64,000 bases of DNA from Anaerotruncus massiliensis (ex Togo et al. 2026). GTDB taxonomy: Bacteria; Bacillota; Clostridia; Oscillospirales; Ruminococcaceae. Each line of letters opens with the position of its first letter. Position 1 is the stretch's first letter. Position numbers and translations under genes: made by a program. This document shows, in pieces, positions 1,971 through 18,865 of this stretch. The notes beneath the pieces were generated by a model. That model saw only the letters and a list, made by a program, of their open reading frames with translations. It was not told where the DNA came from and did no database searches. The stretch lies in the NCBI RefSeq assembly GCF_900199635.1, contig NZ_LT962687.1, positions 556,863 through 620,862 of the forward strand, given 5' to 3'.

Positions 1971-1990
1971 CGGGTCACCTCCTCGAATCG

Positions 1991-2033: not shown

Positions 2034-2043
2034 GCGGAAAGTG

Positions 2044-2072
2044 TTGGCAGGCCATACACATTATAGTAGAAT
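2044..2072 (+). promoter_or_regulatory. Sigma-A-like promoter for the small HTH gene
   Basis: TTGGCA (2044-2049) and TAGAAT (2067-2072) are separated by 17 bases, about 30 bp before the HTH start. This is an ordinary vegetative promoter by sequence. It is divergent from the dinB promoter and shares the short intergenic region with it. Confidence 0.6.
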
Positions 2073-2105
2073 CGAACGAGGCGGCCCGCAGAAAGGGAAC
2101 GCGTC

Positions 2106-2306: not shown

Positions 2307-2344
2307 AGATTCGCATGGTGTAAACTTCGACAGCGGGCCGCCTC

Positions 2345-2575: not shown

Positions 2576-2581
2576 GATGTA

Positions 2582-2833: not shown

Positions 2834-3029
2834 AAGGACACGCCCCCTCTAAAAAAGGTTTGTCGAGCCCGGGGAAGATCGTTCCGCGGGAAAGTCCCAC
2901 TTCCGCCTCATAGACGGGGCCCCACTGCTGCCATGGCGAATAGGTCATGGACAGGGCGGGCATCACGTCGGGCCAGCACGGGTCCTGCACCTGGACCGCG
3001 TATGCGCCCATATCGGGTTTGAGTACCAT
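2826..3029 (-). CDS. cotJA: Spore coat associated protein CotJA
   Basis: This 67-residue protein shows the CotJA signature: SPWQQWGPVYEAEVGLSRGT followed by IFPGLDKPF. It is the first gene of the cotJ operon; in Bacillus this operon depends on the mother-cell factor sigma-E. An AAAGGAG lies before the ATG. The upstream region (about 3085-3130, minus strand) holds CATA-rich stretches that could be a sporulation -10 element, but no clear -35 was found, so no promoter is called. Confidence 0.9.
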   Translation of the reverse strand: MVLKPDMGAYAVQVQDPCWPDVMPALSMTYSPWQQWGPVYEAEVGLSRGTIFPGLDKPFLEGACPCV

Positions 3030-3115
3030 ATCCGAATTTCTCCTTTACCAAAACGGTTGGGGTGTTGACCCCCTCGATTCATACTATGAGTGGCCGTTGA
3101 TTGTGTGATTTGGAT

Positions 3116-3144
3116 TTGTATGGATGAGAAAAACGTGTTAAAAT
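3116..3144 (+). promoter_or_regulatory. Sigma-A-like promoter for the ferritin-VIT1 gene
   Basis: TTGTAT (3116-3121) and TAAAAT (3139-3144) are spaced by 17 bases, about 50 bp before the start at 3193. The promoter is divergent from the cotJ operon. Confidence 0.65.
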
Positions 3145-3192
3145 AGGGGACAATGATAACCGGATAAAAATGTGACGGAAGGGGATGTTTTG

Positions 3193-4086: not shown

Positions 4087-4116
4087 CCGGAAACGGTTTA
4101 CGCGTTTTTCCCGCAG

Positions 4117-4146
4117 CGGGCGGCCGAATGGCCGCCCGTATTTTTT
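4117..4146 (+). terminator. Intrinsic terminator after ferritin-VIT1 gene
   Basis: The stem GGGCGGCC pairs with GGCCGCCC across a 4-base loop and is followed by a run of six T. Confidence 0.85.
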
Positions 4147-4235
4147 GGACTTTTGGCGTGCCATAAGATTCCTGCGAATCCGTCGAAGCCTTCCACATAA
4201 ATCCGATTTTGCCAGTCAATAATAACCTTGCCGAA

Positions 4236-4244
4236 CATACCATA
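4236..4244 (+). promoter_or_regulatory. Possible sporulation-type -10 element before spoVT
   Basis: CATACCATA, 32 bp before the spoVT start, resembles the -10 elements of sigma-G/sigma-E promoters. In Bacillus spoVT is transcribed by forespore sigma-G. No -35 at the expected spacing is convincing (an AATA lies 14-15 bases upstream), so this is tentative. Confidence 0.35.
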
Positions 4245-4275
4245 TTTTCAGATAGAACAAGGAGGAGCAATTCGG

Positions 4276-4449
4276 ATGAAAGCCACAGGAATTGTAAGGC
4301 GTATCGATGACCTGGGACGCGTGGTCATCCCCAAGGAAATCCGGCGAACAATGCGTATCAGGGAGGGCGATCCGCTGCTGATAACACGGACACAGTGGGA
4401 GAGCTACTGCTTTGCCATGCTGGAGCTGGCAAAACGGGCGGGGATATAG
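4276..4449 (+). CDS. spoVT: 5' part of interrupted spoVT (AbrB-type DNA-binding half)
   Basis: The first 34 codons, from MKATGIVRRIDDLGRVVIPK to REGDPL, match the start of SpoVT, the forespore AbrB-family regulator. The homology then ends and the frame continues for 23 codons (LITRTQWESYCFAMLELAKR and AGI) before TAG, giving 57 residues instead of about 178. The missing part lies at 18416-18865, fused in frame to a recombinase gene. Up to GDP this stub retains most of the swapped-hairpin AbrB fold but none of the C-terminal GAF-like domain. The extra 23 codons belong to the inserted element and look like a serine-recombinase C-terminus. The ribosome binding site is AAGGAGGAG. Whether the stub is made and binds DNA is unknown. 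Confidence 0.93.
   Translation: MKATGIVRRIDDLGRVVIPKEIRRTMRIREGDPLLITRTQWESYCFAMLELAKRAGI
4361..4397 (+). other. Left attachment site (attL) of the spoVT element
   Basis: Host spoVT sequence runs to GGCGA (4366-4370), which is also present at the right end (18416-18420). The element arm follows: CCGCTGCTGATAACAC at 4372-4387. It is the exact reverse complement of the right arm at 18402-18417, and the similarity extends about 8 bp further with two mismatches. Crossover lies within GGCGA; the symmetry of the arms centres on the dinucleotide GA. Confidence 0.9.
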
Positions 4450-4458
4450 GGGTACATA

Positions 4459-4504
4459 AAGGCCCGTCAGGGAAAGTAAATGCTTTCCCTGACGGGCCTT
4501 TTTC
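4459..4504 (+). terminator. Strong terminator just inside the element's left end
   Basis: A perfect 18-bp stem (4459-4476 with 4483-4500) and a 6-base loop are followed by T residues. In the integrated state it ends the spoVT stub transcript. In the circular form it would end the recombinase transcript, since the recombinase tail lies immediately before it. Confidence 0.9.
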
Positions 4505-4529
4505 CATATCACATAAAGAGCAAACGAGC

Positions 4530-4558
4530 TTGTGCTTTTGCTGCTTATCCTGTATAAT
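4530..4558 (+). promoter_or_regulatory. Promoter of the hsd operon
   Basis: TTGTGC (4530-4535) and a perfect TATAAT (4553-4558) are separated by 17 bases, about 100 bp before hsdM. Confidence 0.75.
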
Positions 4559-4655
4559 TTTGTAATAAGCATCAGAAATACATATTTCCATGAAAAAACT
4601 TTATCGCTGGCAGGCAGTTGTGAAGGTCGGCGGCGAATGATGCGGAGGACTTTTT

Positions 4656-6161
4656 ATGGCAAACGGAAGCAACAATACAGCGAGCATCGGCTTTGAGGAG
4701 CAGATCTGGGCGGCGGCGGACATCCTGCGGGGGAACATGGATGCCGCCGAATATAAGCACGTGGTTCTGGGGCTGATCTTCTTAAAATACATTTCAGACC
4801 AGTTTGACGCCCGTTTTCAGGAACTGCGCGATGAAGACGACGACGTGGAGGATAAGGACGCCTACACAGAGGTGAATGTGTTTTTTGTGCCGCCGGAAGC
4901 CCGATGGAAAGTAATTGCCGACGCTGCCCATACCGAGGAGATTGGCACGGTCATCGACAACGCCATGCGGGCAATCGAAAAGGAGAACAAACGGCTGAAG
5001 GACGTCCTTCCCAAAACATACTCCCGTACAGAGCTGGACAAGCGCCGTCTCGGGAATGTGGTCGACCTGTTCACCAACATCCAGATGGTGGAGCATGGGG
5101 CGGAGAAGGATATTCTTGGACAGGTCTATCAGTATTGCCTTCAAAAGTTTGCCGAGCAAGAAGGAAAGCGCGCGGGAGAATTTTTTACGCCGTCCTGTGT
5201 GGTGCGGACGCTTGTGGAGGTGCTCCAGCCGTTCCAGGGGCGGGTCTACGATCCCTGCTGCGGCTCGGGCGGTATGTTTGTGCAGTCGGCGGATTTTGTC
5301 CGCCACCACGCCGGAAATATTGGAAATCTCTCAATTTACGGGCAAGACGCCAACCCGACCACCCGCAAAATGGCGATCATGAACCTTGCCATCCGCGGGA
5401 TTGAAGCCGATCTTGGCAGCTACAACGCCGACACGTTTCACAACGACTTGCATAAGACCCTAAAAGCGGATTTTATTATGGCAAACCCGCCGTTTAACCT
5501 CTCGGACTGGAACGACGGCTCGCTGAACGACGACCCCCGTTGGAAATACGGTCTGCCGCCTGCGGGAAACGCCAACTTCGCGTGGCTCCAGCACATGATC
5601 TGGCACCTTGCGCCGGGCGGCAAGATCGGCATGGTGCTGGCCAACGGCTCCCTGTCCTCCCAAAGCGGCGGCGAGGGGGACATCCGCAAAAAGATCGTGG
5701 AGGACGATCTGGTGGAAGGCATCGTCGCCATGCCCACACAGTTATTCTACACCACGCAGATTCCCGTTTCGCTGTGGTTTATCAGCCGCAATAAGAAGCA
5801 AAAGGGCAAGACGCTGTTCATCGACGCCCGCAAAATGGGTACGATGGTCAACCGCCGCCTGCGCGAGATGACCACGGAGGACATCGCCAAAATCGCCGCC
5901 ACATTTCAGGCGTTTGACGATGGGACGCTTGAGGATGTAAAGGGCTTCTGTGCCGCCGTGTCCATGGAGGAGATCGCCAGGCAGGATTATATCCTCACGC
6001 CTGGGCGCTACGTCGGCATCGAGGAGCAGAAGGATGACGGCGAACCCTTTGAGGAGAAGATGACGCGGCTGACAGGGGAACTGTCGGAGATGTTCAAGCG
6101 TTCCCATGAGCTGGAGGAGGAGATTCGCAAAAGACTGGGGGCGATTGGGTATGAGGTCTGA
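4656..6161 (+). CDS. hsdM: Type I restriction-modification methyltransferase subunit HsdM
   Basis: This 501-residue N6-adenine methyltransferase subunit has an N-terminal HsdM helical domain (about 10-145) with FEEQIWAAADILRGNMDAAE. It is followed by the SAM-binding motif DPCCGSGGMF near residue 199 and the catalytic NPPF motif near residue 277. HsdM with HsdS methylates the recognition site and, with HsdR, forms the restriction complex. GGAGGAC precedes the ATG by about 7 bases. The stop overlaps the hsdS start by 11 bp. It is the first gene of the element's hsd operon, and the length is normal. Confidence 0.96.
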   Translation: MANGSNNTASIGFEEQIWAAADILRGNMDAAEYKHVVLGLIFLKYISDQFDARFQELRDEDDDVEDKDAYTEVNVFFVPPEARWKVIADAAHTEEIGTVIDNAMRAIEKENKRLKDVLPKTYSRTELDKRRLGNVVDLFTNIQMVEHGAEKDILGQVYQYCLQKFAEQEGKRAGEFFTPSCVVRTLVEVLQPFQGRVYDPCCGSGGMFVQSADFVRHHAGNIGNLSIYGQDANPTTRKMAIMNLAIRGIEADLGSYNADTFHNDLHKTLKADFIMANPPFNLSDWNDGSLNDDPRWKYGLPPAGNANFAWLQHMIWHLAPGGKIGMVLANGSLSSQSGGEGDIRKKIVEDDLVEGIVAMPTQLFYTTQIPVSLWFISRNKKQKGKTLFIDARKMGTMVNRRLREMTTEDIAKIAATFQAFDDGTLEDVKGFCAAVSMEEIARQDYILTPGRYVGIEEQKDDGEPFEEKMTRLTGELSEMFKRSHELEEEIRKRLGAIGYEV

Positions 6162-7362
6162 TTGGATAAAAAGTACAATTTCTGACATTTGTTCATTAGT
6201 TACGGATGGCTCTCATTTTAGCCCCAAAAGTGTTGACGCAGGCAAGTTTATGGTTTCAGTCAAAGACTTTACTTATGACGGTTTTGACTTTACATCTTGT
6301 CGCCAGATAAGTGAAAAGGACTATATGATACTTGAAAAGAATGGTTGTGTGCCGGAATACAACGATATATTGATAGGTAAAGATGGCGCACGTTTCTTTG
6401 AGGATATAGTGATTTACAGGCAAAGTGAACGCCCGGCACTCTTATCCTCTATTGCTATTCTTCGGTGCAATATGGCCAAGGTTATACCAGAGTTTCTATA
6501 CTATACCTTAAAAACGCCTGATTTTCGAGCAGATGTGCGAGACAATTATGGTTCAGGCTCTGCAATTCCCCGCATAATCTTAAAAGATTTTAAAAGGATG
6601 CCTGTTTTATTGCCCCCAATAGAAGTCCAACGAGTTATTTCCGATACGCTTTCATGCCTTGATGCTCGGATTGCTTTAAACAAAAAGATAAATCATCATT
6701 TAGAGCAGATGGCGCAGGCCATTTTCAAATCGTGGTTCGTGGATTTTGAGCCGTTCGATGGAGTGATGCCGGACGATTGGCAAGTCGGGCATCTCACTGA
6801 TATTGCCGACTACCTCAATGGCCTTGCAATGCAGCGGTTTAGACCTACCGAAAGCGAGGTGGGAATGCCTGTCCTTAAAATTAAAGAACTGCGGCAGGGC
6901 TCGTGTGATGCACAAAGCGAGCTCTGTTCACCCAACGTCCGCTCTGACTATATTGTTCATGATGGCGATGTGATTTTTTCATGGTCTGGTAGCCTCCTTG
7001 TTGATTTCTGGTGCGGTGGTGACTGTGGTCTAAATCAACACCTTTTCAAGGTTACGTCCCGCAAGTACGACAAGTGGTTTTACTACGCCTGGACTTGTCA
7101 CCATCTCGCCCGGTTTATAACAATGGCGGCAGACAAGGCAACCACAATGGGGCACATTAAGCGGGAAGCCCTGGAAAACGCCGAAGTCATCATTCCTGAC
7201 GGGGACAGCTACCGCCAGCTTGGAGGCCTACTCACTCCACTATACGAACAGATTATTAACAATAGGGTCGAGAGCCGCAAGCTGTCCCTGTTGCGTGACG
7301 CGTTGCTACCCCGCCTGATGTCCGGCGAACTGTCCGTTTCCGATCTCGACGACGCTAAATGA
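6151..7362 (+). CDS. hsdS: Type I restriction specificity subunit HsdS
   Basis: This roughly 400-residue specificity subunit has two target-recognition domains, each ending in a conserved helix. The first TRD closes with the block around residues 150-195, including LPPIEVQRVISDTLSCLDAR and then NKKINHHLEQMAQAIFKSWF. The second closes with LRDALLPRLMSGEL near the C-terminus. The ATG at 6151 overlaps the end of hsdM and is preferred over an in-frame upstream start at 6106, because hsdM-hsdS overlaps of this kind are usual. The middle of the gene is noticeably more AT-rich than hsdM or hsdR, as is common for specificity domains exchanged by recombination. Confidence 0.95.
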   Translation: MRSDWIKSTISDICSLVTDGSHFSPKSVDAGKFMVSVKDFTYDGFDFTSCRQISEKDYMILEKNGCVPEYNDILIGKDGARFFEDIVIYRQSERPALLSSIAILRCNMAKVIPEFLYYTLKTPDFRADVRDNYGSGSAIPRIILKDFKRMPVLLPPIEVQRVISDTLSCLDARIALNKKINHHLEQMAQAIFKSWFVDFEPFDGVMPDDWQVGHLTDIADYLNGLAMQRFRPTESEVGMPVLKIKELRQGSCDAQSELCSPNVRSDYIVHDGDVIFSWSGSLLVDFWCGGDCGLNQHLFKVTSRKYDKWFYYAWTCHHLARFITMAADKATTMGHIKREALENAEVIIPDGDSYRQLGGLLTPLYEQIINNRVESRKLSLLRDALLPRLMSGELSVSDLDDAK

Positions 7363-7410
7363 TGGTATACCACCTGTGCGCGTTGTACCAGAACGAGAGG
7401 AGGTCTTTCC

Positions 7411-10400
7411 ATGGCATATACCGAGGCCAACTATGAAAACGCGGTTATCGAGGTGTTCCGCGACACGTTGGGGTACAACTATGTCTATGGCCCCGACGTG
7501 GCCCGCGACTACGCCGACCCTCTGTTTATGGACGAGCTTTTGCCCGCCTTGCGCCGCGTCAATCCCAAGCTGCCGGAGGCGGCACTGACCGAGGCGGTTT
7601 ACAAGCTGCGGAATTTTGAGGGCGGCACGGTGCTGCAGAAGAACATCCAGTTCATGGAATACCTCCAAAACGGTGTGTCCGTCAACTACTACGACAAGGG
7701 CGAACAGCAGGCGGCCTTGGTGTATCTCGCGGACTATGAAAACGTGGAGCACAACACCTTTACCGTCGCCAACCAGTGGACAATCACCGAGAACAGCGAA
7801 AAGCGCCCCGACGTGATCGTATTTCTGAACGGTTTGCCCGTGGTGGTGTTTGAGCTGAAATCTCCCTCCCGCGAGGAGACAGACGCCTCCGAGGCGTTTC
7901 TCCAGCTGCGGAACTATATGCAGGAGATTCCATCCCTGTTTATCTACAACGCATTCCTTGTCATGAGCGACCTCGCCACCTCCAAGGCGGGAACCATCAC
8001 AGCCGGCGAGGACCGCTTTATGGAGTGGAAAACCAAGGACGGCAGCTACGAAAACACGCAGTACGCCCAGTTTGACACCTTCCTTGAGGGGATGTTCGAC
8101 CGGATGCGGCTGCTTGATATCATCAAAAACTTTATCTGCTTCTCCGGCGATGCAAAAATTCTCGGCGCCTACCACCAGTATTTTGCCGTGAAAAAAGCGG
8201 TCGCCTCCACCGTGAACGCCACCGCCACGGACGGCAGGGGCGGCGTGTTCTGGCATACCCAGGGCAGCGGCAAATCGCTGTCCATGGTCTTTTATGCCCA
8301 TTTGCTGCAGAATGCGATGAACTCGCCCACGATTGTAGTCCTCACCGACCGCAACGACCTGGACGACCAGCTTTTCGGGCAGTTTGCCAAGTGCGCCGAC
8401 TTCCTGCGCCAGGTGCCGCAGCAGGCCGAGAGCCGCACCCACCTAAAGGAGCTGCTGGCGGGGCGGCAGGCGAACGGCATTATTTTCACCACGGCACAGA
8501 AGTTTGAGGAGGCCGAGGACTGCCTGTCTGAGCGGCGAAATATCGTTGTGATGGCGGACGAGGCCCACCGTAGCCAGTTTATTGATGAAAAGGTGGACAA
8601 GAAGACAGGCCGCATCCAAAAATCCTTCGGCCTGATTATCCGCGAGAGTCTCCCGAACGCCACCTACATAGGCTTCACCGGAACGCCGATTTCCAGCAAG
8701 GACCGTTCCACCATTGAGGTCTTCGGAAATTACATCGACATCTACGATATGACCCAGGCCGTGGAGGACGGAGCCACCCGCCCCGTTTACTATGAGAGCC
8801 GCGTCATCCACCTCAAGCTGGACCAGGACGTCCTGCGGCTGATCGACGCCGAATACGACATCATGGCCCAGAACGCCGAGGACTACGCCATCGAAAAGAG
8901 CAAAAAGGAACTGGGCAGGATGGAGTCGATCCTGGGCGCGGAGCAGACCATAACCGCCTTGTGCGAGGATATCGTCAAGCACTACGAAGAAAACCGGCAG
9001 TATGAGCTTACGGGCAAGGCCATGATCGTCGCCTATTCCCGCGCCATCGCTATGGACATCTACCGCAAGCTGCTGGAGCTCCGCCCTGGGTGGGCCGAAA
9101 AAATCGGTGTGGTCATGACAGAGAGCAACAAGGACCCCGAGGAATGGCGCGGGATCATCGGCAACAAGCACCGCCGCGACGAGCTGGCGAAGCGCTTTAA
9201 GGACGATGGCGACCCCATGAAAATTGCCATCGTGGTGGATATGTGGCTGACGGGCTTTGACGTACCGTCCCTCGCCACCATGTATGTTTATAAGCCGATG
9301 GCGGGACATAATCTCATGCAGGCCATCGCCCGCGTCAACCGCGTTTACAAGGATAAAGAGGGCGGCCTGGTGGTCGATTACATCGGCATCGCTTCGGCGT
9401 TGAAGCAGGCCATGAACGATTACACCAACCGCGATAAAAATAACTACGGCGATCCAGACATCGCAAAAACGGCCCTGCCGAAGTTCATGGAAAAGCTGGA
9501 GGTCTGCCGCGATTTGCTCCACGGTTTTGACTACTCCGGTTTTATGCGGGAGAATGCAACCGACCTCTCCCGCGCCAAGGCGATCAGCGGTGGCGCAAAC
9601 TTCCTGTCGGGCGTTGAGGAGGAAGAGCGGCGCGAGGCGTTTATCGAAGAGGCCATGCTTTTGCGCCAGGCGCTTTCCCTCTGCCGCTCGCGCCTCACAC
9701 CGCAGCAGCGTTATGAAGCCGCCTATTTTGAAGCAGTACGGACGCTTCTCACCCGGATTACCGGCGAAGGCAAGCCATTGTCCTTGAAAGAAATCAATGC
9801 CCGCATCAACGAATTATTGAAGGCGAGCATTCAAAGCGAGGGCGTGATCAATCTATTTTCGGACGTGGACACCGGATTTTCCTTGTTCGGCCCAAAGTTC
9901 CTTGATGAAATTGCCAAGATGAAGGAAAAGAACCTCGCCGTCGAACTGTTGAAGAAATTGCTTGCTGAACAGGTTTCCCTCTACCGCAGAACAAACCTGG
10001 TTAAGAGTGAGAAGTTCTCTGAGTTACTCTCCCGCGCCATGAAGGCGTACCTTAACGGGATGCTCTCCAATGAGGAGGTCATCGCCGAACTGATGAAGAT
10101 GGCAAAGGAGATGGCGGACGCCCAGTCGCAGGGCAACGCCATGGGCCTCACGAGTGAGGAGCTGGCATTTTATGATGCTCTGACCCGTCCCGAAACGGTG
10201 AAGGATTTCTATCAGAACGAAGAGCTTGTGGCGATGACCCACGAGCTCACGGATTTGCTGCGCAAAAACCGTACCATTGACTGGCAGAAGAAAGAATCGG
10301 CTCGTGCCGGAATGCGCCGCATGGTCAAGAAACTGCTGCGAAGATATAAATATCCGCCGGAGGGTATGGAGGACGCCATTGCCACGGTCATCGGACAGTG

Positions 10401-10425
10401 CGAGATGTGGACGGACAATGAATAG
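7411..10425 (+). CDS. hsdR: Type I restriction endonuclease subunit HsdR
   Basis: This 1004-residue motor and nuclease subunit has an N-terminal PD-(D/E)XK nuclease domain with PDVIVF and VVVFELKSP (near residue 147). The superfamily 2 helicase motifs follow: Walker A HTQGSGKSLS (near 283), DEAH in MADEAHRSQF (near 383), FTGTPIS, and later GFDVPSLATMYVYKPM and ARVNR. HsdR cleaves DNA after ATP-driven translocation when the HsdMS site is unmethylated. AGGAGG precedes the ATG. It sits 48 bp after hsdS, and no frameshift is seen, so the restriction system looks intact. Confidence 0.96.
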   Translation: MAYTEANYENAVIEVFRDTLGYNYVYGPDVARDYADPLFMDELLPALRRVNPKLPEAALTEAVYKLRNFEGGTVLQKNIQFMEYLQNGVSVNYYDKGEQQAALVYLADYENVEHNTFTVANQWTITENSEKRPDVIVFLNGLPVVVFELKSPSREETDASEAFLQLRNYMQEIPSLFIYNAFLVMSDLATSKAGTITAGEDRFMEWKTKDGSYENTQYAQFDTFLEGMFDRMRLLDIIKNFICFSGDAKILGAYHQYFAVKKAVASTVNATATDGRGGVFWHTQGSGKSLSMVFYAHLLQNAMNSPTIVVLTDRNDLDDQLFGQFAKCADFLRQVPQQAESRTHLKELLAGRQANGIIFTTAQKFEEAEDCLSERRNIVVMADEAHRSQFIDEKVDKKTGRIQKSFGLIIRESLPNATYIGFTGTPISSKDRSTIEVFGNYIDIYDMTQAVEDGATRPVYYESRVIHLKLDQDVLRLIDAEYDIMAQNAEDYAIEKSKKELGRMESILGAEQTITALCEDIVKHYEENRQYELTGKAMIVAYSRAIAMDIYRKLLELRPGWAEKIGVVMTESNKDPEEWRGIIGNKHRRDELAKRFKDDGDPMKIAIVVDMWLTGFDVPSLATMYVYKPMAGHNLMQAIARVNRVYKDKEGGLVVDYIGIASALKQAMNDYTNRDKNNYGDPDIAKTALPKFMEKLEVCRDLLHGFDYSGFMRENATDLSRAKAISGGANFLSGVEEEERREAFIEEAMLLRQALSLCRSRLTPQQRYEAAYFEAVRTLLTRITGEGKPLSLKEINARINELLKASIQSEGVINLFSDVDTGFSLFGPKFLDEIAKMKEKNLAVELLKKLLAEQVSLYRRTNLVKSEKFSELLSRAMKAYLNGMLSNEEVIAELMKMAKEMADAQSQGNAMGLTSEELAFYDALTRPETVKDFYQNEELVAMTHELTDLLRKNRTIDWQKKESARAGMRRMVKKLLRRYKYPPEGMEDAIATVIGQCEMWTDNE

Positions 10426-10437
10426 GGGGCGGTGGGA

Positions 10438-12501
10438 ATGAACGCTTTCAAAAGCAACATTTACAAATATCTCGGCGGGACGTGCCAATACCTGATACCG
10501 CTGTATCAGAGAACCTATAGTTGGGGACAGGAGCAGTGCGTCCGCCTTTGGAGTGACATTGTCAATCTCCACAACACGCGTCGGGAGGGACATTTTGTCG
10601 GTTCCATAGTCCGCATTGACGAGGACTCGGCGGCAGGATCAACCCTCGCCATGATCATAGACGGGCAGCAGCGGCTTACAACGCTGACCTTGCTGCTGAT
10701 TGCCCTGCGGGACTATGCACGGACAAATCCCGACTGTGGGGTAAACCCCAATAAAATTACAGATACACTGCTATTAAACCAGTACGAGGCAGGGAATGCC
10801 AAGTATAAATTGCTCCTGACGCAGTCCGACAGGGACGCGCTGATCAAGAAGATCGAAGGAACGCCGGTCCCTGACGCCCTCAAGTCACGCGTGCTTGACA
10901 ATTATGAATTCTTTGCGGGGCAAATTACCAGATTGGAAATCTCCCCCTCCAATCTTTATGACGCCATCGGGAAACTGCAAATCGTAGATATCGTCCTTGA
11001 CCGGCAGTATGATGATCCACAGGCGATCTTTGAGAGCCTGAACTCCACAGGTATGAATTTAAAGGACTCCGACCTGATCCGCAACCACCTGCTGATGGGC
11101 CTGGACTCCGTAACCCAGGCGGACGTTTACAACAACATCTGGCGACCGACGGAATTGCTCTTTGATTATGAGCACCAAAGCGAGGTGCTGGACAGCTTTT
11201 TCCGCGATTACCTCACCATGAAGCTCGGCAGAATTCCAAGAAAGAACGAAATTTATAAGGAGTTTCGCGCTTACCATAATGGCAGCGGGCTGACTATCCG
11301 CGACCTTTGCCAGGATATATACGCTTTTGCCAGGTACTACTCGGATATGTACTTTGTAAGAAGTGACGACGAAATTCTAAAATCACTGTACGGCGACATG
11401 AGGGCAATCCGTATGGAGGTTGCCTACCCATTCCTGCTGAAAGTTCATGAGGATTGCAAAAAGGGCCTGTTAACCGCCTCCGAGCTGCGGGAAATTGTGC
11501 AGCTCTGCGTGAGCTATGTCTTGCGCCGGGCTGTGTGTAATATCCCGACAAATTCACTGAACAAGACTTTTGCCACAATGAAGAATGATATTCGGACGGA
11601 CGATTACCTGAACTCTGTAAAGGCTTTCTTTGTTTTACTTGATTCCTATAAGGAATTCCCAACTGATAAACAGTTTTTATCTGAATTCTTATCCAGGGAC
11701 ATCTACAACATGAACCGATGCCGCTACATTCTCAGCCGGCTTGAGAACTGGGATAATAAGTCCGTTGTGTCTCTGGAGAACTTAACAATCGAACACATTA
11801 TTCCACAGAATCCACATCTGTCCGCCGAGTGGATCGCCGCGCTCGGCAGCGACTGGAGCGAGATTCAGAAAAAGTATCTGCATACCATTGGGAACCTAAC
11901 TCTGACAGCTTACAACTCTGAAATGAGCGACTCGTCTTTCTCCGAAAAACTTGATATGGCAGGCGGTTTTAAGGAAAGCGCCCTCCGGCTGAATAAATAC
12001 GTTGTGATGCAGTCAACCTGGGGAGAGCAGCAAGTAACGGAGCGCGCCGACAAGCTTGGAGAACTGGCTCTAAAAGTCTGGCCGTTCCCGACGTTGACCG
12101 AGACAGAACTTTCCACGTACCGCAAGCAGAATGAGGCTCCGCAGCAATACACACTCGATAGCTACGACCAAATAAATGCGTATAACAGAATGCTATTTGA
12201 GAAATTAAATACGAGAATTTTCAATCTCGGTACATTTGTAAAACGAGAATTTAAGAAGCTCTACGTTGCCTATAAAGCGGACACAAACTTTGTGGATATT
12301 GTCATTCAAAAATCCCGGCTCCGCCTTTCCTTAAATATGAAATTTTCTGAGGTCATTGATCCAAAGGGGCTATGCAAGGATATTACAGAACTCGGCAGGT
12401 GGGGTAACGGCGATGTGGAGGTCGGAATGGATAGTCTTGACCAGTTAGATGATATTATGGCTCTGATTGAGCAAGCATTTCAAAAGCAAGAGATGGATTA
12501 A
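10438..12501 (+). CDS. DUF262/DUF1524 (GmrSD-like) protein with C-terminal DUF5655-like domain
   Basis: This 687-residue protein opens with a DUF262 ParB-like domain; the diagnostic DGQQRLTTLTLLLIAL lies near residue 75 and YQRTYSWG near 22. An HNH-type DUF1524 domain follows (TIEHIIPQNPHL near 451, then HTIGNLTLT). The last 110 residues resemble a DUF5655 domain. GmrS/GmrD-type (type IV) enzymes use this DUF262 plus HNH pairing to hydrolyse nucleotide and cut modified DNA. The gene starts 13 bp after hsdR, so it is probably co-transcribed as an added defence layer. A GTG at 10432 is an alternative start. Activity against modified phage DNA is inferred from the family. Confidence 0.88.
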   Translation: MNAFKSNIYKYLGGTCQYLIPLYQRTYSWGQEQCVRLWSDIVNLHNTRREGHFVGSIVRIDEDSAAGSTLAMIIDGQQRLTTLTLLLIALRDYARTNPDCGVNPNKITDTLLLNQYEAGNAKYKLLLTQSDRDALIKKIEGTPVPDALKSRVLDNYEFFAGQITRLEISPSNLYDAIGKLQIVDIVLDRQYDDPQAIFESLNSTGMNLKDSDLIRNHLLMGLDSVTQADVYNNIWRPTELLFDYEHQSEVLDSFFRDYLTMKLGRIPRKNEIYKEFRAYHNGSGLTIRDLCQDIYAFARYYSDMYFVRSDDEILKSLYGDMRAIRMEVAYPFLLKVHEDCKKGLLTASELREIVQLCVSYVLRRAVCNIPTNSLNKTFATMKNDIRTDDYLNSVKAFFVLLDSYKEFPTDKQFLSEFLSRDIYNMNRCRYILSRLENWDNKSVVSLENLTIEHIIPQNPHLSAEWIAALGSDWSEIQKKYLHTIGNLTLTAYNSEMSDSSFSEKLDMAGGFKESALRLNKYVVMQSTWGEQQVTERADKLGELALKVWPFPTLTETELSTYRKQNEAPQQYTLDSYDQINAYNRMLFEKLNTRIFNLGTFVKREFKKLYVAYKADTNFVDIVIQKSRLRLSLNMKFSEVIDPKGLCKDITELGRWGNGDVEVGMDSLDQLDDIMALIEQAFQKQEMD

Positions 12502-12542
12502 CAAAATCTTACAGTCTTGTTTTGATACAGTGGAGGTGTGCC

Positions 12543-13370
12543 ATGGAGAAAACACTTTTGGATCTTGACCGTATCCCCACGCTGGACGAGCTCCGCACCT
12601 TCTTCCGGGAGAACGATTTTTCTTCCGCCGCCTACATCGATTTGGACTATGACAAATTGGACGGCGACGCCGTAGAATTTCTGGAGCACGCCAAGTCCCT
12701 GATGGACGAGCACTGGGAACCGCTCTCCCGCGAAATGGGGCTTAAATCCGCCTCCTCCTATTATGGCAAGGACAATCCGTTGATCGCTCTGCGGGACAAC
12801 ATGGAGAATCTGGCAGCGGGCGGTGTGCTCAAGCTTTTGGAGGAGCACCCGGAACGGGCCGCTGAGATTTTGTCTCAGTTTGATTTGGATAATCCAGATA
12901 TGGACCGAAAGGCTGATGACCTCCTGCACAGCGCGGTGGAGACACTGATGCAGGTCACCGACTATAAAACAATGGCCGAAGTGGTTCAGGCGGAGCCGGC
13001 CAATGAGGACTTTAATCATCGCAGGCCTCAGAATTTTCGCGCACAGGATTTTGACCGCAAGTGGAATCACACCCGCGCAAAAATGGAGGTGGCCTCTCTG
13101 GACGAATTGCAGGACGCTGTCAGCGAGGACGAGGGGAGTGCCGCATTACAAATACCGGACCCGCAAGTCGATGTCGAGGCGGAGGCCTCCACGAGTGTCA
13201 TGCAGAAAAATTTTTGGAGTAGTATTTCAGAGGAGGATAGAAGGTTGCTGCAAATGCGAATGCAGGGATTGACACAAAAAGAGATTGCCCAGCGCCTCGG
13301 TTATCAAACCCACAGTGCTGTTGCCAAGCGGCTGCAAAAGTTAAAGACACTGTTTGAGCAATGCGCGTAA
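12543..13370 (+). CDS. Sigma-factor-like HTH protein of the element
   Basis: This 275-residue protein has no assigned function over its first 220 residues, which are mostly acidic helices. The last 50 residues form a clear sigma-70 region 4-like helix-turn-helix: EEDRRLLQMRMQGLTQKEIA, then QRLGYQTHSAVAKRLQKLK. No region 2 is visible, so it is unlikely to be a complete sigma factor. The ATG at 12543 follows GGAGGTG by 5 bases; a TTG at 12522 is a weaker alternative. It ends at a strong terminator and precedes the mobilization region. A role in regulating the element's mobilization or excision genes is an inference from position. Confidence 0.8.
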   Translation: MEKTLLDLDRIPTLDELRTFFRENDFSSAAYIDLDYDKLDGDAVEFLEHAKSLMDEHWEPLSREMGLKSASSYYGKDNPLIALRDNMENLAAGGVLKLLEEHPERAAEILSQFDLDNPDMDRKADDLLHSAVETLMQVTDYKTMAEVVQAEPANEDFNHRRPQNFRAQDFDRKWNHTRAKMEVASLDELQDAVSEDEGSAALQIPDPQVDVEAEASTSVMQKNFWSSISEEDRRLLQMRMQGLTQKEIAQRLGYQTHSAVAKRLQKLKTLFEQCA

Positions 13371-13372
13371 CG

Positions 13373-13406
13373 ACTGCCCGCCGATTCATTTCGGCGGGCA
13401 GTTTTT
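13373..13406 (+). terminator. Terminator after the sigma-like gene
   Basis: A 12-bp perfect stem, ACTGCCCGCCGA with TCGGCGGGCAGT, spans a 6-base loop and is followed by TTTTT. Confidence 0.9.
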
Positions 13407-13863
13407 GCGTTTAAAAATATTTTGTGGAGCACAGGAACATTTCGTCTATACGGTGTCGTTAAGAAATGAACGCAGAATGCGTTGGCCGCTGTAGTGCCCC
13501 GTGTGCGCCGAGTTCTGTTGCTGGGGAGTGACCGCCCCTATGCGAGAAAACGGTATATGCGGGGCTCCTGCACCCCATGGAGGCCTAATGGACTGCGTAC
13601 CAAAGCAGAGAGGAGCGACACCATGGAAAAATAAGATAGGCCGCCGATGATCCCGTCACCCAAAAGTGTAAGAGTAGTAGGAAAGCCTGCAAGCAGGGCT
13701 TCCCTACTCTTTTCTTTTTCTGCCCTTTTCTTGATAGGCGCGATTGGGTGAAGGATGCGGAAACCCTCCCGTCAGGGAGGGGCAAGCAAAGCGTCCGGCT
13801 ATACGCCGGCCGCTGGTGGCGGTGCGCTGCCCCACACCCCAAAAAACGCGGAAGGAGAGTTAC
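13407..13863 (+). other. Non-coding leader of the mobilization genes, candidate oriT
   Basis: This 457-bp stretch before mobC holds no convincing gene. It contains several inverted repeats: CCCTCCC-GTCA-GGGAGGG (13764-13781), CCGGC-TATAC-GCCGG (13795-13809) and the terminator-like hairpin at 13671-13721. It also holds an isolated ATGGAAAAATAA mini-ORF (13623) preceded by GAGAGGAGCG. The location directly upstream of mobC and the relaxase, with clustered small inverted repeats, is where transfer origins normally lie. The nick site itself was not identified. Confidence 0.5.
13671..13721 (+). terminator. Hairpin with T-rich tail in the mobilization leader
   Basis: AGAGTAG pairs with CTACTCT, and an inner GC-rich stem with small bulges closes on the loop near 13691. 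CTTTTCTTTTT follows. It could end a short leader transcript before mobC (attenuation) or act as a terminator for upstream transcription. Confidence 0.6.
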
Positions 13864-14175
13864 ATGAAGAAACAGAAAGACAAGACCTATGCGTTTCGGG
13901 TCAGTTCGGCTGAACTGAACAAAATAAAGGCACTGGCCAAGCGGGCCAATATGACTGTCACAGCCTATCTCACAACCTGCGCCTTGAATAAAAAGATCAC
14001 CATTATTACGGGACTGGACGAATGGCTGGCGGAGATGAAAGCCCAAGGGCGAAACCTCAATCAGTTTGTCACGAGGATGCACATGGGGCAGTCAGATCCG
14101 GCGCTGGCCGAGCGGTTGATTCAAAAATATGGCGACCTCTGTGTGGAGCTGCGGCGTATTGGGGAGGCGGAATAA
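13864..14175 (+). CDS. mobC: Mobilization relaxosome accessory protein MobC
   Basis: This 103-residue protein resembles MobC. It has an N-terminal ribbon-helix-helix-like segment (AFRVSSAELNKIKALAKRAN, then MTVTAYL), followed by the family's GRNLNQFVTRMHMGQ block (near 63-77) and a C-terminal helix. MobC helps the relaxase open oriT. The ATG at 13864 has GGAAGGAG upstream. Its stop and the relaxase start share one base (TAATG), so the two are translationally coupled. Confidence 0.88.
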   Translation: MKKQKDKTYAFRVSSAELNKIKALAKRANMTVTAYLTTCALNKKITIITGLDEWLAEMKAQGRNLNQFVTRMHMGQSDPALAERLIQKYGDLCVELRRIGEAE

Positions 14176-15194
14176 TGGCTACCTTTACCCGAATTAAGAG
14201 CAAGAACCAGTCCTGCGGGCGGATGCTGGGTGCACTGGCTTATGTCCTGCAAGATAAAAAAGTGCGTTTTAAGGGAGCCAGGGTGACGAGCGGCGTGGGC
14301 TGCCTGCCAGTTACCAGCTACCTTGAAATGATGACCACAAAGCAGCGATTTAAGAAAATGGATGGCGTTTGTTTCTATCATTTTGTCCAGTCTTTCTCCG
14401 AGCGTGAGAACATCACACCCTGGCAGGCGAATGAGATTGCTCGCGAGCTGGCGGAAAAGCTGTTCCCAGGGTATGAGTGTGTGGTAGCGACCCATAGCGA
14501 TACCGACAACCTCCATTCCCATATCGTCGTCAACTCTGTCAGCTTCAGAGACGGAAAGAAACTGCATCTGCCGCCTACCTCCATCCAAGAAATGCGGCAG
14601 GTGAACGACCAAATTTGCCAGGCTCACGGGTTCTCCGTGCTGGAACACTATAACGGAAAGAAGAAAAAGCGCCGGCTTGCACCGGGCGAGTTTCGCGCCG
14701 CCCAGCGGGGTGAGAGCTGGAAGTTTGCACTCATCAAGGCCATTGAGGAAGCTCTGCTGTACTCCCCCGACCGGGAGAGCTTCATTCAAAATATGGAGTA
14801 TGAGGGCTATCAGGTGCAGTGGAGCGACACCCGGAAGTATATCACCTACACCTGCCCCAACGGGATGAAGTGCCGGGACAACAAGCTTCACGACGAAACC
14901 TACCTGAAAGAGAATCTGGAGAAACTGTTCGCCCACCGGCAGGCCACGGGCTTTGTTCCCCTCACGCCGGAGCCGCCCGAGGGCTGGCTGGGCGAGCTGG
15001 AGCGGGCCAGAGAGCTGGCAGGGGATGTGGTTTCCCTCGGCAGGAATCTGGAGCGCATTGGCGAAGTACCGCCGCTGCCCGTGCCGCGAACCTGGACGGA
15101 CAGCAAGCAGCGGCGGCGGGAGGCTCTAAAAAAGCTGGCCCAGGGCCACAAGCTCCAGAGCGAGCAGGAGCAGAAATTGGGTCCGCAAATGTAA
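14175..15194 (+). CDS. Mobilization relaxase (MobA/VirD2-type)
   Basis: This 339-residue relaxase nicks oriT and pilots the DNA strand during mobilization. Motif III is clear near residue 106: THSDTDNLHSHIVVNSV, the HxDxxxxHxH metal-binding signature. An upstream tyrosine for DNA attachment is probably the Tyr in ALAYVLQ (near 23). The usual long C-terminal extension of the family is short here. It is coupled to mobC. With no coupling protein or mating-pair genes in the element, transfer would need a helper conjugation system. Confidence 0.9.
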   Translation: MATFTRIKSKNQSCGRMLGALAYVLQDKKVRFKGARVTSGVGCLPVTSYLEMMTTKQRFKKMDGVCFYHFVQSFSERENITPWQANEIARELAEKLFPGYECVVATHSDTDNLHSHIVVNSVSFRDGKKLHLPPTSIQEMRQVNDQICQAHGFSVLEHYNGKKKKRRLAPGEFRAAQRGESWKFALIKAIEEALLYSPDRESFIQNMEYEGYQVQWSDTRKYITYTCPNGMKCRDNKLHDETYLKENLEKLFAHRQATGFVPLTPEPPEGWLGELERARELAGDVVSLGRNLERIGEVPPLPVPRTWTDSKQRRREALKKLAQGHKLQSEQEQKLGPQM

Positions 15195-15254
15195 CCCGGC
15201 ATATAAGAGCCAAAATCTGGGGACACTCTTAGAAAACGGAGGAGGCGACGCCTA

Positions 15255-15530
15255 TTGAAGATGTCCGTGGATGAGGAGAAGAAAATTGTGGAACTCTGGC
15301 TCACCGCTGCCGAGCAGAACGACACGGCACTGATGGAATCCCTGAAGCCGCTCTACGAGGCTTGGCGCGAGAGGCAGTACCGCCCAGTGGTATTCCGCTC
15401 CGGCAGACGCGATCTGCTGGACCTCACAGAGGGACTGCTGCTGCACAACCGTACCGCAGCCGCCCGCCGGGACTTGGAGCGGGAGTCACCGGGACCGGAA
15501 CCGGCGATGGGAATAACCATGGGTATGTAA
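15255..15530 (+). CDS. Small hypothetical protein of the mobilization module
   Basis: This 91-residue helical, charged protein has no recognised domain. A GGAGGAGG lies 8 bases before the TTG at 15255; the ATG at 15261 is the alternative start. It comes 60 bp after the relaxase. Small proteins at this position in mobilizable elements can be accessory or excision-directionality factors, but nothing in this sequence shows that. It is followed by a GGATGCGCC/GGCGCATCC hairpin (15539-15558) without a T run. Confidence 0.6.
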   Translation: MKMSVDEEKKIVELWLTAAEQNDTALMESLKPLYEAWRERQYRPVVFRSGRRDLLDLTEGLLLHNRTAAARRDLERESPGPEPAMGITMGM

Positions 15531-15599
15531 AACCCCCCGGATGCGCCGTGGCGCATCCGTTACATAGAAGCGGCATGGACGGCGCGCCCGTCTTTTTTC

Positions 15600-15628
15600 T
15601 TGCTTTTAGCCGGTACGCATGGTACAAT
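15600..15628 (+). promoter_or_regulatory. Promoter for rhuM and the recombinase
   Basis: TTGCTT (15600-15605) and TACAAT (15623-15628) have 17-bp spacing, about 70 bp before rhuM. As rhuM and the recombinase overlap, this is the likely promoter for both. Confidence 0.65.
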
Positions 15629-15695
15629 ATTATCTGATATAAATCAGCAAACTTAGAATGAAATTGATAGATTGCTTGCGTCGGGAGGAATGAGC

Positions 15696-16712
15696 ATGGC
15701 GGATCAAAAGATGGACAGCGGAGAAATCCTGCTGTACGACAACGGCGGCGAAAAGGAATTTATAAGCGTCATTTTCAAGGATGAAAATTTTTGGCTGACG
15801 CAGAAGGCCATGGCGGAGCTGTTCGGCTGTACGCCGGACAACATCTCCCTGCACCTGAAAAATATCTTCGCGGAGGACGAGCTTGACAAGAATTCAGTTA
15901 CCGAGAAATTCTCGGTAACTGCCGCCGACGGCAAAAACTATTTGACCCAGTGCTACAACCTGGACGCCATCATTGCCGTGGGCTACCGGGTGAACTCCAA
16001 AAAGGCCACCCGGTTCCGCCAGTGGGCCACCAGAACGCTGAAAGAATACATCCAAAAGGGCTTTGTCCTCAACGACGAGCTGATGAAAAACGGCCGCCCC
16101 TTCGGCAAGGACTACTTTGACGAGCTTCTGGAGCGCATCCGGGAGATCCGCGCCAGCGAGCGGCGGGCCTACCAGAAGATCGCCGATGTGTTCGAGCAGT
16201 GCAGCTATGACTACAACAAGAACAGCGAGACCACGAAGGCATTCTACGCCTTTGTGCAGAACAAGCTGCACTTTGCCGTCACGGGTATGACGGCGGCGGA
16301 GCTGATCGCGGACCGGGCCACGCTGGACAGCCCCACCATGGGCCTGACCACCTGGAAGGGCGCGCCGGATGGGAAAATCCTCAAGAGCGACACGCTGATC
16401 GCCAAAAACTATCTCAATGAAAAGGAACTCTCCCGCCTGAACCGCCTGGTCACCATGTTCATCGACTACGCCGAACTGATGGCGGAGGATCAGCAGCTTA
16501 TGAGCATGGCGGACTGGCTGGCGGAAACCGACCGCTTTCTCACCAACAACCGCCGCAAGGTGCTGGAGGACAAGGGGCATATCTCCCACGACGACGCGGT
16601 GAAGAAGGTTGGCGGCATCTATGCGGAGTTCCGCAAAAAGCAGGATGCCGCGTACATCTCGGAGTTTGACCGGGAGACCGCCAAGTATTTGAAGGGCGGT
16701 GACCCGACGTGA
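15696..16712 (+). CDS. rhuM: RhuM-family protein
   Basis: This 338-residue protein belongs to the RhuM family, named from a Salmonella pathogenicity island and often found on mobile elements. Visible family blocks are FWLTQKAMAELFGCTPDNIS (a putative HTH), YNLDAIIAVGYRVNSKKATR, then FRQWATRTLKEYIQKGFVLN, and a C-terminal helical region. Its biochemical role is unknown. The start at 15696 has GGGAGG 7 bases upstream. The stop overlaps the recombinase GTG by 4 bp, so the two are coupled. A perfect palindrome (15896-15920) lies in the coding sequence. Confidence 0.88.
   Translation: MADQKMDSGEILLYDNGGEKEFISVIFKDENFWLTQKAMAELFGCTPDNISLHLKNIFAEDELDKNSVTEKFSVTAADGKNYLTQCYNLDAIIAVGYRVNSKKATRFRQWATRTLKEYIQKGFVLNDELMKNGRPFGKDYFDELLERIREIRASERRAYQKIADVFEQCSYDYNKNSETTKAFYAFVQNKLHFAVTGMTAAELIADRATLDSPTMGLTTWKGAPDGKILKSDTLIAKNYLNEKELSRLNRLVTMFIDYAELMAEDQQLMSMADWLAETDRFLTNNRRKVLEDKGHISHDDAVKKVGGIYAEFRKKQDAAYISEFDRETAKYLKGGDPT
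15896..15920. repeat. Perfect 25-bp palindrome inside rhuM
   Basis: AGTTACCGAGAA (15896-15907) and TTCTCGGTAACT (15909-15920) are exact inverted copies around one central A. The palindrome lies within rhuM codons of the segment NSVTEKFSVTA. It may be a binding site, a hairpin, or incidental. Confidence 0.75.
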
Positions 16713-18865
16713 CGGAGACCTTCACGATCGCGGGCTACTGCCGGATCTCGGTGGACGAGGAGATGGACCGGGAGAACACCTCCATCGAGAATCAAAAGGC
16801 CATTATTCAGGATTTTGTGGCGAAAAAATTCCCCGGCAGCGGCCTGACCTTTTTCGAGGATCGGGACCGCTCCGGGTACACCTTCGAGCAGCGGGAGAGC
16901 TACCAGAAGATGCGCCCCCAGCTCATGGGCCACAAGTATGACATCCTGGTGGTCAAGGACTTCTCCCGATTTGCCCGGCGCAATAGCCGGGGGCTGGTGG
17001 AGCTGGAGGACCTGCGGGACGCGGGGGTGCGCATCATTTCCATCGGTGACTCCATCGACTACCCCACCTACGACGACTGGACGGCCATCCAGTTCCGCTT
17101 CCTCATCAACGAGATGCCGGTGACCGACGCCAGCAAAAAGGTCAAGTCGGTCATCCAGCGCCGCCAGAACGACGGCAAATGGATCTGTGCGGTGCCCTAC
17201 GGCTACGTCATCACCAACAGCAAAACCATGCAGTTCGAGATCGACGAGCCCGCCGCCGTCGTGGTGCGGGACATTTACCGGCTCTACAATGAGGGCTGGG
17301 GCTACAAGAAAATCGCCAACCACCTTACCGACCTGCACATCCCCACCCCCCGCATGGCGGAGAAAGCCCGCAAGGAGGCCCAGGGGGAGGACTCGAAGCG
17401 CAAGGCCCGGCCGGAGTGGAGCATCGTCACCGTACAGGGCATCCTGGAAAACGACTTCTACATCGGCACCCTGCGCCAGGGCAAATACACCCGGAAGAAG
17501 ATCAACGGCGCGGACCGGAAGAAGGACGAGAGCGACCACATCGTCTTTGAAAACCACCACGAACCCATCCTGGATTACCGCACCTTTGCCCTGGCCCAGG
17601 AGGGGCGCAAAAAACGCAGCACCTCCTGCTATCGGGGCATTAAAATCCACGACAACGTGTACTCCGGCTTTCTCTTTTGTGGGGACTGTGGACAGCCCAT
17701 GTTCTCCATGAGCCGCCGGGATCTGCGGCCCGCCTACACCTGCTCCAGCTACCACAAGCGGGGCCTCAAGGGCTGCACCAGCCACCACACACGGGTGGAC
17801 CTGCTGGACGACCTGCTCAAGCGCTACATCCGGCAGGTGAAAGAGAATTCGGCAGATATGCTGGACAAGCTCAACGCCTCCCTCAAGGCCGAGAGCGCTG
17901 AGGTGAAGAACAACGAGGAGACCTCCGTAATCCTGCAAAAGCAGCTGGACGACGCCTGGGAGGAGCTAAAGGCCACCAAGCGCCAGCGGGTGCGGGACGT
18001 GATGAAGCACCCGGAGAAAGAGGAACTGCTGGAACAGACCTATGACGAGCTGGAGGCCGAGCTGGAGGCCAAGATCAGCGGCCTCCAAAACCAGATTGAG
18101 CTGACCGCCGACAAGCGCAACACGATCATCCAGGTCAACCGCATCGCCCGTACGGCGCTGGACATTTTCGACGAGATCTTGGCCAAGGACAAGCTGGACA
18201 AGGTGGATTTGGAGCTGATCATCGAAAAAATCACCGTATACGAGGATCACATTGAAATCCAGCTCAAGGCTGACATCGACCAGCTTTTGCAGTGCGGAAC
18301 CATTTTGGAGGAAACGGCCGCAAATTTTAAGCAGGGCACGGGACATATCTCACAAATCGCCCAGTCCAGCCAAAACCGGCCGGACAAGGTGTTCCGTGTC
18401 AGTGTTATCAGCAGCGGCGACCCCCTTGAAATATATACCGACAACGACGGCGAAGTGATCTTTAAGAAGTATTCCCCCATCGGCGAGCTTTCCGCCTTTG
18501 CCACCCAGTACGCGGAGGTGCTCAGCAAGATCGGCGGCTATCCGGTCGTCGTCTGCGACCGCGACCACGTCATCAGCGTGGCGGGCATCCCCAAAAAGGA
18601 GCTGCTCGAGCGCCGCGTGTCCCCCGCGCTCGAGGAGGTCATGGAGCAGCGCCGCAGCTTCGCGGTGACCGCCGACGGCAAAAAGATGCAGCCGGTGGAG
18701 GGCGTCGACCGCTACGCGCTGGTCGAGGCGCCGATCATCGCCGCGGGCGACGTGTGCGGCAGCCTGATGTTCATCGCGGGCGACAGCCCCGCGCCCGCCA
18801 CCGACACCGAGATCAAGCTCATCCAGGTGGGAGCGGCCTTCCTCGGCCGCCAGATGGAGGAATAA
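16709..18865 (+). CDS. Large serine recombinase fused in frame to the 3' part of spoVT
   Basis: Residues 1-569 are a large serine recombinase. The catalytic domain opens with GYCRISVDEE (nucleophile Ser14) and contains VVKDFSRFARRNSRGLVELE. A recombinase domain (about 165-290) follows, then a zinc ribbon with FCGDCGQPM (near 322) and a coiled-coil (about 385-480). From residue 570 (GDPLEIYTDNDGEVIFKKYS) onward the sequence is SpoVT residues 31-179, including its GAF-like effector domain. The fusion results from integration at codon 32 of spoVT. On the excised circle the recombinase would instead end PLLITRTQWESYCFAMLELA-KRAGI, 596 residues in all. The start is GTG at 16709, inside the rhuM stop. 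Confidence 0.93.
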   Translation: MTETFTIAGYCRISVDEEMDRENTSIENQKAIIQDFVAKKFPGSGLTFFEDRDRSGYTFEQRESYQKMRPQLMGHKYDILVVKDFSRFARRNSRGLVELEDLRDAGVRIISIGDSIDYPTYDDWTAIQFRFLINEMPVTDASKKVKSVIQRRQNDGKWICAVPYGYVITNSKTMQFEIDEPAAVVVRDIYRLYNEGWGYKKIANHLTDLHIPTPRMAEKARKEAQGEDSKRKARPEWSIVTVQGILENDFYIGTLRQGKYTRKKINGADRKKDESDHIVFENHHEPILDYRTFALAQEGRKKRSTSCYRGIKIHDNVYSGFLFCGDCGQPMFSMSRRDLRPAYTCSSYHKRGLKGCTSHHTRVDLLDDLLKRYIRQVKENSADMLDKLNASLKAESAEVKNNEETSVILQKQLDDAWEELKATKRQRVRDVMKHPEKEELLEQTYDELEAELEAKISGLQNQIELTADKRNTIIQVNRIARTALDIFDEILAKDKLDKVDLELIIEKITVYEDHIEIQLKADIDQLLQCGTILEETAANFKQGTGHISQIAQSSQNRPDKVFRVSVISSGDPLEIYTDNDGEVIFKKYSPIGELSAFATQYAEVLSKIGGYPVVVCDRDHVISVAGIPKKELLERRVSPALEEVMEQRRSFAVTADGKKMQPVEGVDRYALVEAPIIAAGDVCGSLMFIAGDSPAPATDTEIKLIQVGAAFLGRQMEE
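18391..18430 (+). other. Right attachment site (attR) of the spoVT element
   Basis: The arm GTGTTATCAGCAGCGG (18402-18417) is the exact reverse complement of the left arm. The shared GGCGA occupies 18416-18420, and host spoVT sequence resumes with CCCCCTTGAAATATA. The joined host site would read AGGGAGGGCGACCCCCTTG, itself roughly symmetric about GA. Confidence 0.9.

Follow-up and report, generated by a model that had tools for sequence, protein, structure and literature searches.

Two prophage or prophage-like elements, skin in sigK and SPβ in spsM, are known to split a sporulation gene that is rebuilt by their exact excision, according to passages of PMC4191935 and PMC5025042. The gin element in gerE of Bacillus cereus, as outlined in parts of PMC5595907, is of non-phage type, carries restriction-modification genes, splits a small sporulation regulator, and combines a serine recombinase with a small recombination directionality factor (RDF), the 42-amino-acid GirX, and a short shared core; the same source describes sigK and gerE as controlling mother-cell expression. 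Here we analyse a stretch of 64,000 nucleotides from Anaerotruncus massiliensis (G000:C7:556863-620862 of a 3.15-Mb genome; this whole stretch is referred to as the window), in which spoVT is interrupted at codon 32 by a 14-kb mobile element. We read it, at a probability of roughly 0.8, as an integrative mobilizable element with a recombinase from a family dedicated to one spoVT site, the end of the recombinase being swapped for a host domain. It splits a sporulation gene and its exact removal would restore the frame, which places it among gene-intervening elements, and its anatomy is like that of the known ones. In contrast to gin, developmental excision timed to sporulation is hypothetical here.

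The 5′ part of spoVT (4276-4449, forward strand, as are all features given below unless stated; TIGR02851 positions 1-35) consists of codons 1-32 followed in frame by an element-encoded tail, 57 amino acids in total, the tail being similar among 27 compared left ends. The 3′ part (18416-18865), about codons 31-179 with the GAF domain, matches TIGR02851 positions 18-180 and PF15714 within the 718-amino-acid open reading frame (ORF) that also holds the recombinase. Both junctions carry the core GGCGA, attL at 4366-4370 and attR at 18416-18420, and the flanks rejoined at this core give 180 codons, that is 179 amino acids and the final stop alone. The joined protein aligns with four intact SpoVT proteins of the same genus without a gap column and with 155-170 of 179 residues identical, and in a fifth genome of the genus (G225) spoVT is likewise uninterrupted at the insertion site. 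A first-pass annotation, made from the letters of the window, had proposed the split into codons 1-32 and 31-179 and the 179-residue rejoining, and had expected related genomes with an uninterrupted gene at this point; the gap-free alignment bears out the former and the five same-genus genomes the latter. The second intact copy that it had considered was not found: a TIGR02851 search (E<=0.001) of the window's genome gave no second full spoVT and matched three places, the two halves and an AbrB-like sequence. The last (window 62932-63093, reverse strand) is a paralogue matching SpoVT residues 1-55 and not a second spoVT. The inverted arms at the element ends were confirmed: counted outward from a central GA, 16 contiguous positions starting at the second base are paired, and 18 of the first 20, compared with 8 of 20 in the empty host site. 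Related recombinases interrupt this very codon in numerous genomes, as described below, so that the interruption is beyond chance.

The recombinases of skin and SPβ are encoded as separate proteins. In the window, the recombinase ORF (16709-18865, 718 amino acids) reaches attR without a stop codon of its own and continues in frame into the SpoVT half, so that Resolvase, Recombinase and Zn_ribbon domains are followed by SpoVT residues 18-180 with PF15714. The recombinase part, delimited by alignment, extends to a shared Gly-Asp-Pro (16709-18424; PF00239, PF07508, PF13408); these domains, with long C-terminal helices in a low-confidence model, identify the large serine recombinase that the first-pass annotation had placed at the right end. 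It falls short of the SCCmec cassette recombinases: CcrB, CcrC and CcrA gave 109.6, 81 and 63.9 bits against NCBIfam cut-offs of 900, 900 and 700. The predicted fold of the fusion is poor (mean pLDDT 67.7, pTM 0.30) and does not allow domain contacts to be assigned; the SpoVT half is mostly at pLDDT 80-92, after a low-confidence stretch at about residues 530-590.

The reciprocal product joins SpoVT codons 1-32 to the element-encoded tail (57 residues). The left end of the element (4371-4449) carries an attP-type inverted arm, recognised by its pairing, and then putative C-terminal tail codons of the recombinase. Since the attP-type junction would fall within the 3′ end of the recombinase gene, the recombinase encoded by a circle would end in this left-end tail. 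Tails were compared in 27 of 32 left ends (G064, G250, G298b, G333b and G136 were dropped). In codons 11-24, past the palindromic arm, the ratio of nonsynonymous to synonymous differences (pN/pS) was 0.30 over 25 close, non-independent pairs, and in codons 1-10, which contain the arm, it was 0.70 over 259 pairs. From the value beyond the arm, the far tail seems to be selected as protein, and either the recombinase of the circular form or the short product of SpoVT and tail could be what is selected. In the reading that we prefer, attP would be a near-palindrome with GA at its centre, situated within the 3′ end of the recombinase gene and in the same frame as the target codons, so that integration would exchange protein ends: the recombinase would lose its own C-terminal tail and gain the GAF half of SpoVT, and SpoVT codons 1-32 would gain the recombinase tail. 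Exact excision, probably aided by a small protein encoded upstream, would restore spoVT together with the recombinase's own end. The first-pass annotation had been right about the split and the element, and had overlooked the in-frame fusion, its recurrence and the conserved small upstream protein.

The arrangement recurs across genomes. TIGR02851 matches 366 of 396 genomes of the family, and 49 of these, picked by visual inspection because their best matches were weak or partial, were searched again. Twenty-nine right-hand junctions could be read, the window included; 26 join a close variant of the recombinase end VNVISDGDP to SpoVT LEI(Y/F)T (with the recombinase cut by a contig end in G064, G073, G190 and G383), and the remaining three are a further C part in G064, G136 with its inverted element, and G192. 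A profile search made independently of this (E<=1e-120) detected the recombinase in 26 of the 396 family genomes and 20 of 126 genera, fused at the same codon in 24 (22 from the junctions above, together with G282 and G380) and unfused in G136 and G140. Among named genomes, for which the best 80 of 425 relatives were taken, 78 loci read in frame into SpoVT (2 of them cut by contig ends), the exceptions being L132, which is the G136 case, and L150, with a different downstream sequence; these loci overlap with the family genomes, and the counts are not independent. Commensal isolates with the fusion include Agathobaculum butyriciproducens DSM 100391, Butyricicoccus pullicaecorum DSM 23266 and Ruminococcus bicirculans 80/3. 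In a class-wide sample the recombinase occurs in 7 of 391 genomes, and in 6, from five families and with the window's own genome included, it is fused. The first-pass annotation had treated the locus as one interruption analogous to skin and SPβ; the interruption stands, and in place of a single case there is a widespread element family.

Some loci depart from the common form. The element of G136 (L132/L079) is reversed, its recombinase facing the spoVT 5′ part without fusion. In G140 (L254; G140:C6:2038500-2044500) the recombinase is unfused; about 217 bases separate its end from an intact downstream spoVT that has a start of its own, and a gene for the small protein precedes the recombinase. 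A family recombinase of Ruminococcus flavefaciens NALB (L150, 11690-12050) adjoins other downstream sequence with a GGCGA core, possibly a secondary site. G092, G246, G298 and G333 (L084, L106-L108, L087-L088 and L077-L078) hold 2-3 copies of the spoVT 5′ part, each with an element-type tail, and some of the copies have similar upstream DNA. In G192 (L111; G192:C25:1-3300) the spoVT frame is broken near codon 12, with no element at this site, and G782 has a recombinase like that of G770 (see below) with internal stops.

Recombinases and their hosts are not tightly coupled. Recombinase and SpoVT-half identity correlate with a Spearman coefficient of 0.61 across 77 rows, the window included (L132, L150, L133 and L193 were dropped). 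For the 25 pairs with recombinase identity of at least 93%, the SpoVT halves are 63-84% identical in 21, 92-99% in 3 and 41% in one, L177/L195, at 94% recombinase identity. Judged from these comparisons, different hosts have acquired related recombinases at one and the same codon by horizontal transfer, and the 41% pair requires a transfer across distant hosts. Such movement, together with the sporadic distribution (26/396 family genomes), also suits a plain parasitic insertion, in which spoVT is broken, sporulation is poor or absent, excision is rare and serves transfer, and the fusion is a by-product of the attP position; we give this explanation somewhat less than an even chance. It sits less well with the fused SpoVT halves, 76 of 78 of which are open for 143-152 codons to the stop, the other two running off the contig, although recent insertions could explain this. 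An intact spoVT beside junctions in G380 also speaks against it. In that genome (99% complete, about 20 contigs) the intact gene lies within a contig of 294 kb, contig C5 begins with an attL junction, and C6, which also encodes the small protein, ends with an attR junction of recombinase and SpoVT; the junction flanks equal the intact gene over 85/85 and 149/149 bases outside the shared core. Empty and occupied alleles thus coexist, apparently in one strain, and active excision may be the cause.

Circular forms were sought in plasmids and phages. All 234 matching plasmid records were less than 60% identical. Among the viral-contig relatives L203-L208 (L209 and L210 were left out), L203, L204 and L206 read into SpoVT, L205 stops at a contig end just before it, and L207 and L208 are distant. 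Of two faecal scaffolds, MT839487 is cut at the attachment site and MT836658 is integrated. The attP pattern gave in the 396 family genomes two attL near-matches alone, one being the window's own.

The cargo of these elements is diverse in gene clustering over 45 loci, with the exception of one small protein, an orphan encoded at 15255-15530 in the window. Its profile, built from 16 of the loci counted, matches 67 of 81 loci overall and 52 of the 58 for which 1.8 kb or more of sequence ahead of the recombinase is available; with the 16 profile-building rows excluded, the protein is present in 51 of 65 loci and in 36 of 42 with enough sequence. It lies mostly within about 2.2 kb of the recombinase (4.0 kb in L143, 5.7 kb in L186, and on the other strand in L128). 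It has no NCBIfam or PHROGs match and a sub-threshold Pfam match only, and its predicted fold (mean pLDDT 85) has no PDB match at E<=0.001. Owing to its position and its conservation upstream of the recombinase, we infer that it is the best RDF candidate.

Several observations weigh against the reading of a dedicated, end-swapping recombinase family. The seventh recombinase of the class-wide sample, in G770, has 561 residues and its own stop, with the same spoVT site about 140 bases further; the small protein is encoded upstream of it (E 2.8e-11). G140, too, has an unfused recombinase beside an intact spoVT. From the sequences, the fusion looks like a derived state of the spoVT-targeting lineage, with one clean unfused relative as the evidence. 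The SpoVT half may evolve faster, which could account for part of the mismatch between recombinase and SpoVT-half identity. For G380, a mixture of near-identical strains, a partial colonization or two spoVT copies could also produce the pattern; the contigs with its junctions stop 85 and about 158 bases away from the core, and attP was not found in it using its own sequence. No assembled attP was found in the 396 family genomes or viral contigs either, with a pattern that fits the window's ends and not those of all elements (not G380's), and so no circle was seen. G157, of the window's genus, has attB and attR forms only, with 71 shared bases and a difference at the 72nd. Finally, 6 of 58 loci are without the small protein, whose directionality role is a candidate one. 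As a separate observation, an attR-type end is joined to spoVT on contig C3 of G157 (L233), of about 3.7-3.8 kb and without a family recombinase, which is possibly a non-autonomous relative.

The remaining genes of the element agree with a mobilizable, restriction-carrying nature, as the first-pass annotation had it from the letters and as the Hsd, GmrSD, MobC-like and relaxase families now support. It carries two restriction systems: a type I system of methyltransferase HsdM (4656-6161; PF02384, PF12161), specificity subunit HsdS (6106-7362; PF01420) and restriction subunit HsdR (7411-10425; TIGR00348 at 588 bits, above cut-off), and a GmrSD-type restriction protein with DUF5655 (10432-12501; PF03235, PF07510, PF18899). 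They are followed by a weak sigma-70 region 4 or helix-turn-helix protein (12522-13370, matches below cut-offs), a NikA/MobC-like mobilization protein (13744-14175, true start probably later; PF21983) and a MobA/VirD2-type relaxase (14175-15194; PF03432), for which the start, judged from the sequence, is likely within ORF 14022-15194. A RhuM family protein (15672-16712; PF13310) has its stop overlapping the recombinase start. No phage structural or conjugation-apparatus families were found among the ten element ORFs scanned, shorter ORFs being not all included. With an integrase, a relaxase and an accessory mobilization protein, and no conjugation apparatus in the scanned ORFs, the element qualifies as integrative and mobilizable.

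SpoVT, a forespore regulator under sigma-G control, is essential for B. cereus to complete sporulation but not for B. subtilis, where spoVT deletion still permits spores, as stated in part of PMC5061766. The B. subtilis result favours parasitic insertion. Given the forespore role, a sporulation-timed switch would have to act in the germline cell, and excision in the forespore would lose the element from the germline unless it re-integrated. Our initial idea, a skin-like switch in which mother-cell excision timed to sporulation rebuilds spoVT, as for sigK and gerE, was set aside for the same reason: such excision would not supply SpoVT where it works. The exact in-frame restoration fits this idea, as do the non-phage, restriction-carrying character shared with gin and a recombinase and candidate small partner resembling GirC/GirX of gin (in the portions of PMC5595907 considered), but we hold it to be very unlikely. 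The comparison to skin and SPβ made in the first-pass annotation is thus imperfect and does not carry over directly to a forespore gene.

Host spore genes were scanned in 27 genomes counted as split-gene, including G042, whose spoVT is intact. A sigG match of at least 319 bits is present in 25 of 27, none above the curated cut-off, and the same applies to intact relatives; the exceptions are G158, in which sigG itself is split, and G327, with fragments only. Small acid-soluble spore proteins (SASP) are encoded in 26 of 27, the single miss being a genome 64% complete. Five intact same-genus genomes have a sigG match in 5/5 and SASP in 4/5. In four of five spoVT-less genomes, hand-picked from the 30 family genomes without a TIGR02851 match, there are general sigma-factor matches only (116-127 bits) and no SASP, the fifth having a sigG match as well as SASP. 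These spore genes, at a minimum, are thus retained in carrier hosts, unlike in four of the five spoVT-less genomes, which argues against parasitic insertion, although here again insertions could be recent. The retained spore genes also oppose a view of spoVT as being lost in these lineages, with the split genes as decaying remnants. A few broken or rearranged cases (the frame break in G192, the inversion in G136, extra 5′ copies in G092, G246, G298 and G333) and the split sigG in G158 agree with decay; both spoVT halves are almost always open, however, and pN/pS of the C-terminal half is 0.12-0.47 over 14 close split pairs, with pS near saturation and no intact baseline. We regard decay as quite unlikely. 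In G158, which also has a split spoVT, sigG, likewise a forespore gene, is split by about 6.1 kb (L219; G158:C8:31500-40500, 1102-8017). The insert carries a 452-amino-acid serine recombinase-like ORF, named from its sequence, and genes which presumably belong to NAD salvage, to judge by their resemblance.

Promoters were scanned as housekeeping-like sites with at most 3 mismatches and compared with Markov-resampled sequences. Such sites are enriched upstream of the recombinase (47/75, expected 21.0, sd 3.3) and not upstream of the small gene (9/54, expected 10.3). This enrichment argues against strictly sporulation-limited expression of the recombinase, and its vegetative look is in line with parasitic insertion; in the window the recombinase may lack a promoter of its own, as its start overlaps rhuM. 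Relaxed sigma-G/F patterns upstream of the recombinase (4/75 against 0.7 expected) and sigma-F patterns upstream of the small gene (2/54 against about 0) would speak for a skin-like switch, in a test that is insensitive, the spoVT control having failed. Strict sigma-G patterns (0/75) and strict sigma-G, sigma-E and sigma-K patterns in general are unenriched upstream of the recombinase, which would count against that switch in the same insensitive test (spoVT control, strict sigma-G 1/61, some control loci having probably been left unoriented).

Compared with other described systems, the element differs from gin in that gerE is a mother-cell gene and gin has three recombinases, and in that no recombinase-host protein fusion appears in the parts of its description covered here (PMC5595907); skin likewise resides in a mother-cell gene, sigK. 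In the integration-dependent immunity of mycobacteriophage BPs, as summarised in part of PMC4557955, it is a repressor that is affected, whereas here it is the recombinase, and its new end is a host domain. Engineered integrase-RDF fusions, in sections of PMC5737554, indicate that serine integrases can be shifted towards attL x attR recombination by a protein fused to them; those fusions are man-made and contain a true RDF, whereas the present one is natural, contains the GAF half of SpoVT and has a putative effect. Many related recombinases with one coding target are also found among the large serine recombinases of Durrant et al. (portions of PMC10083194), in whose main text, supplementary tables aside, AbrB is absent, and spoVT is not named as a target in the part of PMC6907783 covered. 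The open-access papers searched, supplements aside, gave no description of this element family, of spoVT together with a serine recombinase, or of a recombinase fused to sporulation protein T.

One further proposal is a natural switch of directionality and timing, which we consider unlikely. The circle with the native tail would integrate; the GAF-fused form with its small partner would excise on the forespore signal of SpoVT; the germline cell would in this way regain an intact spoVT, and re-integration would follow after germination.

For strict anaerobes, sporulation is a means of passing between hosts, and an element family that repeatedly enters a regulator of late spore development constitutes a recurring point of genetic control over this transmission. 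The fusion, present in five families of the class-wide sample, raises the question whether a borrowed host domain decides the departure of the recombinase. Gene-splitting elements are hereby extended from mother-cell genes, where loss costs the lineage nothing, to a forespore gene, where it does.

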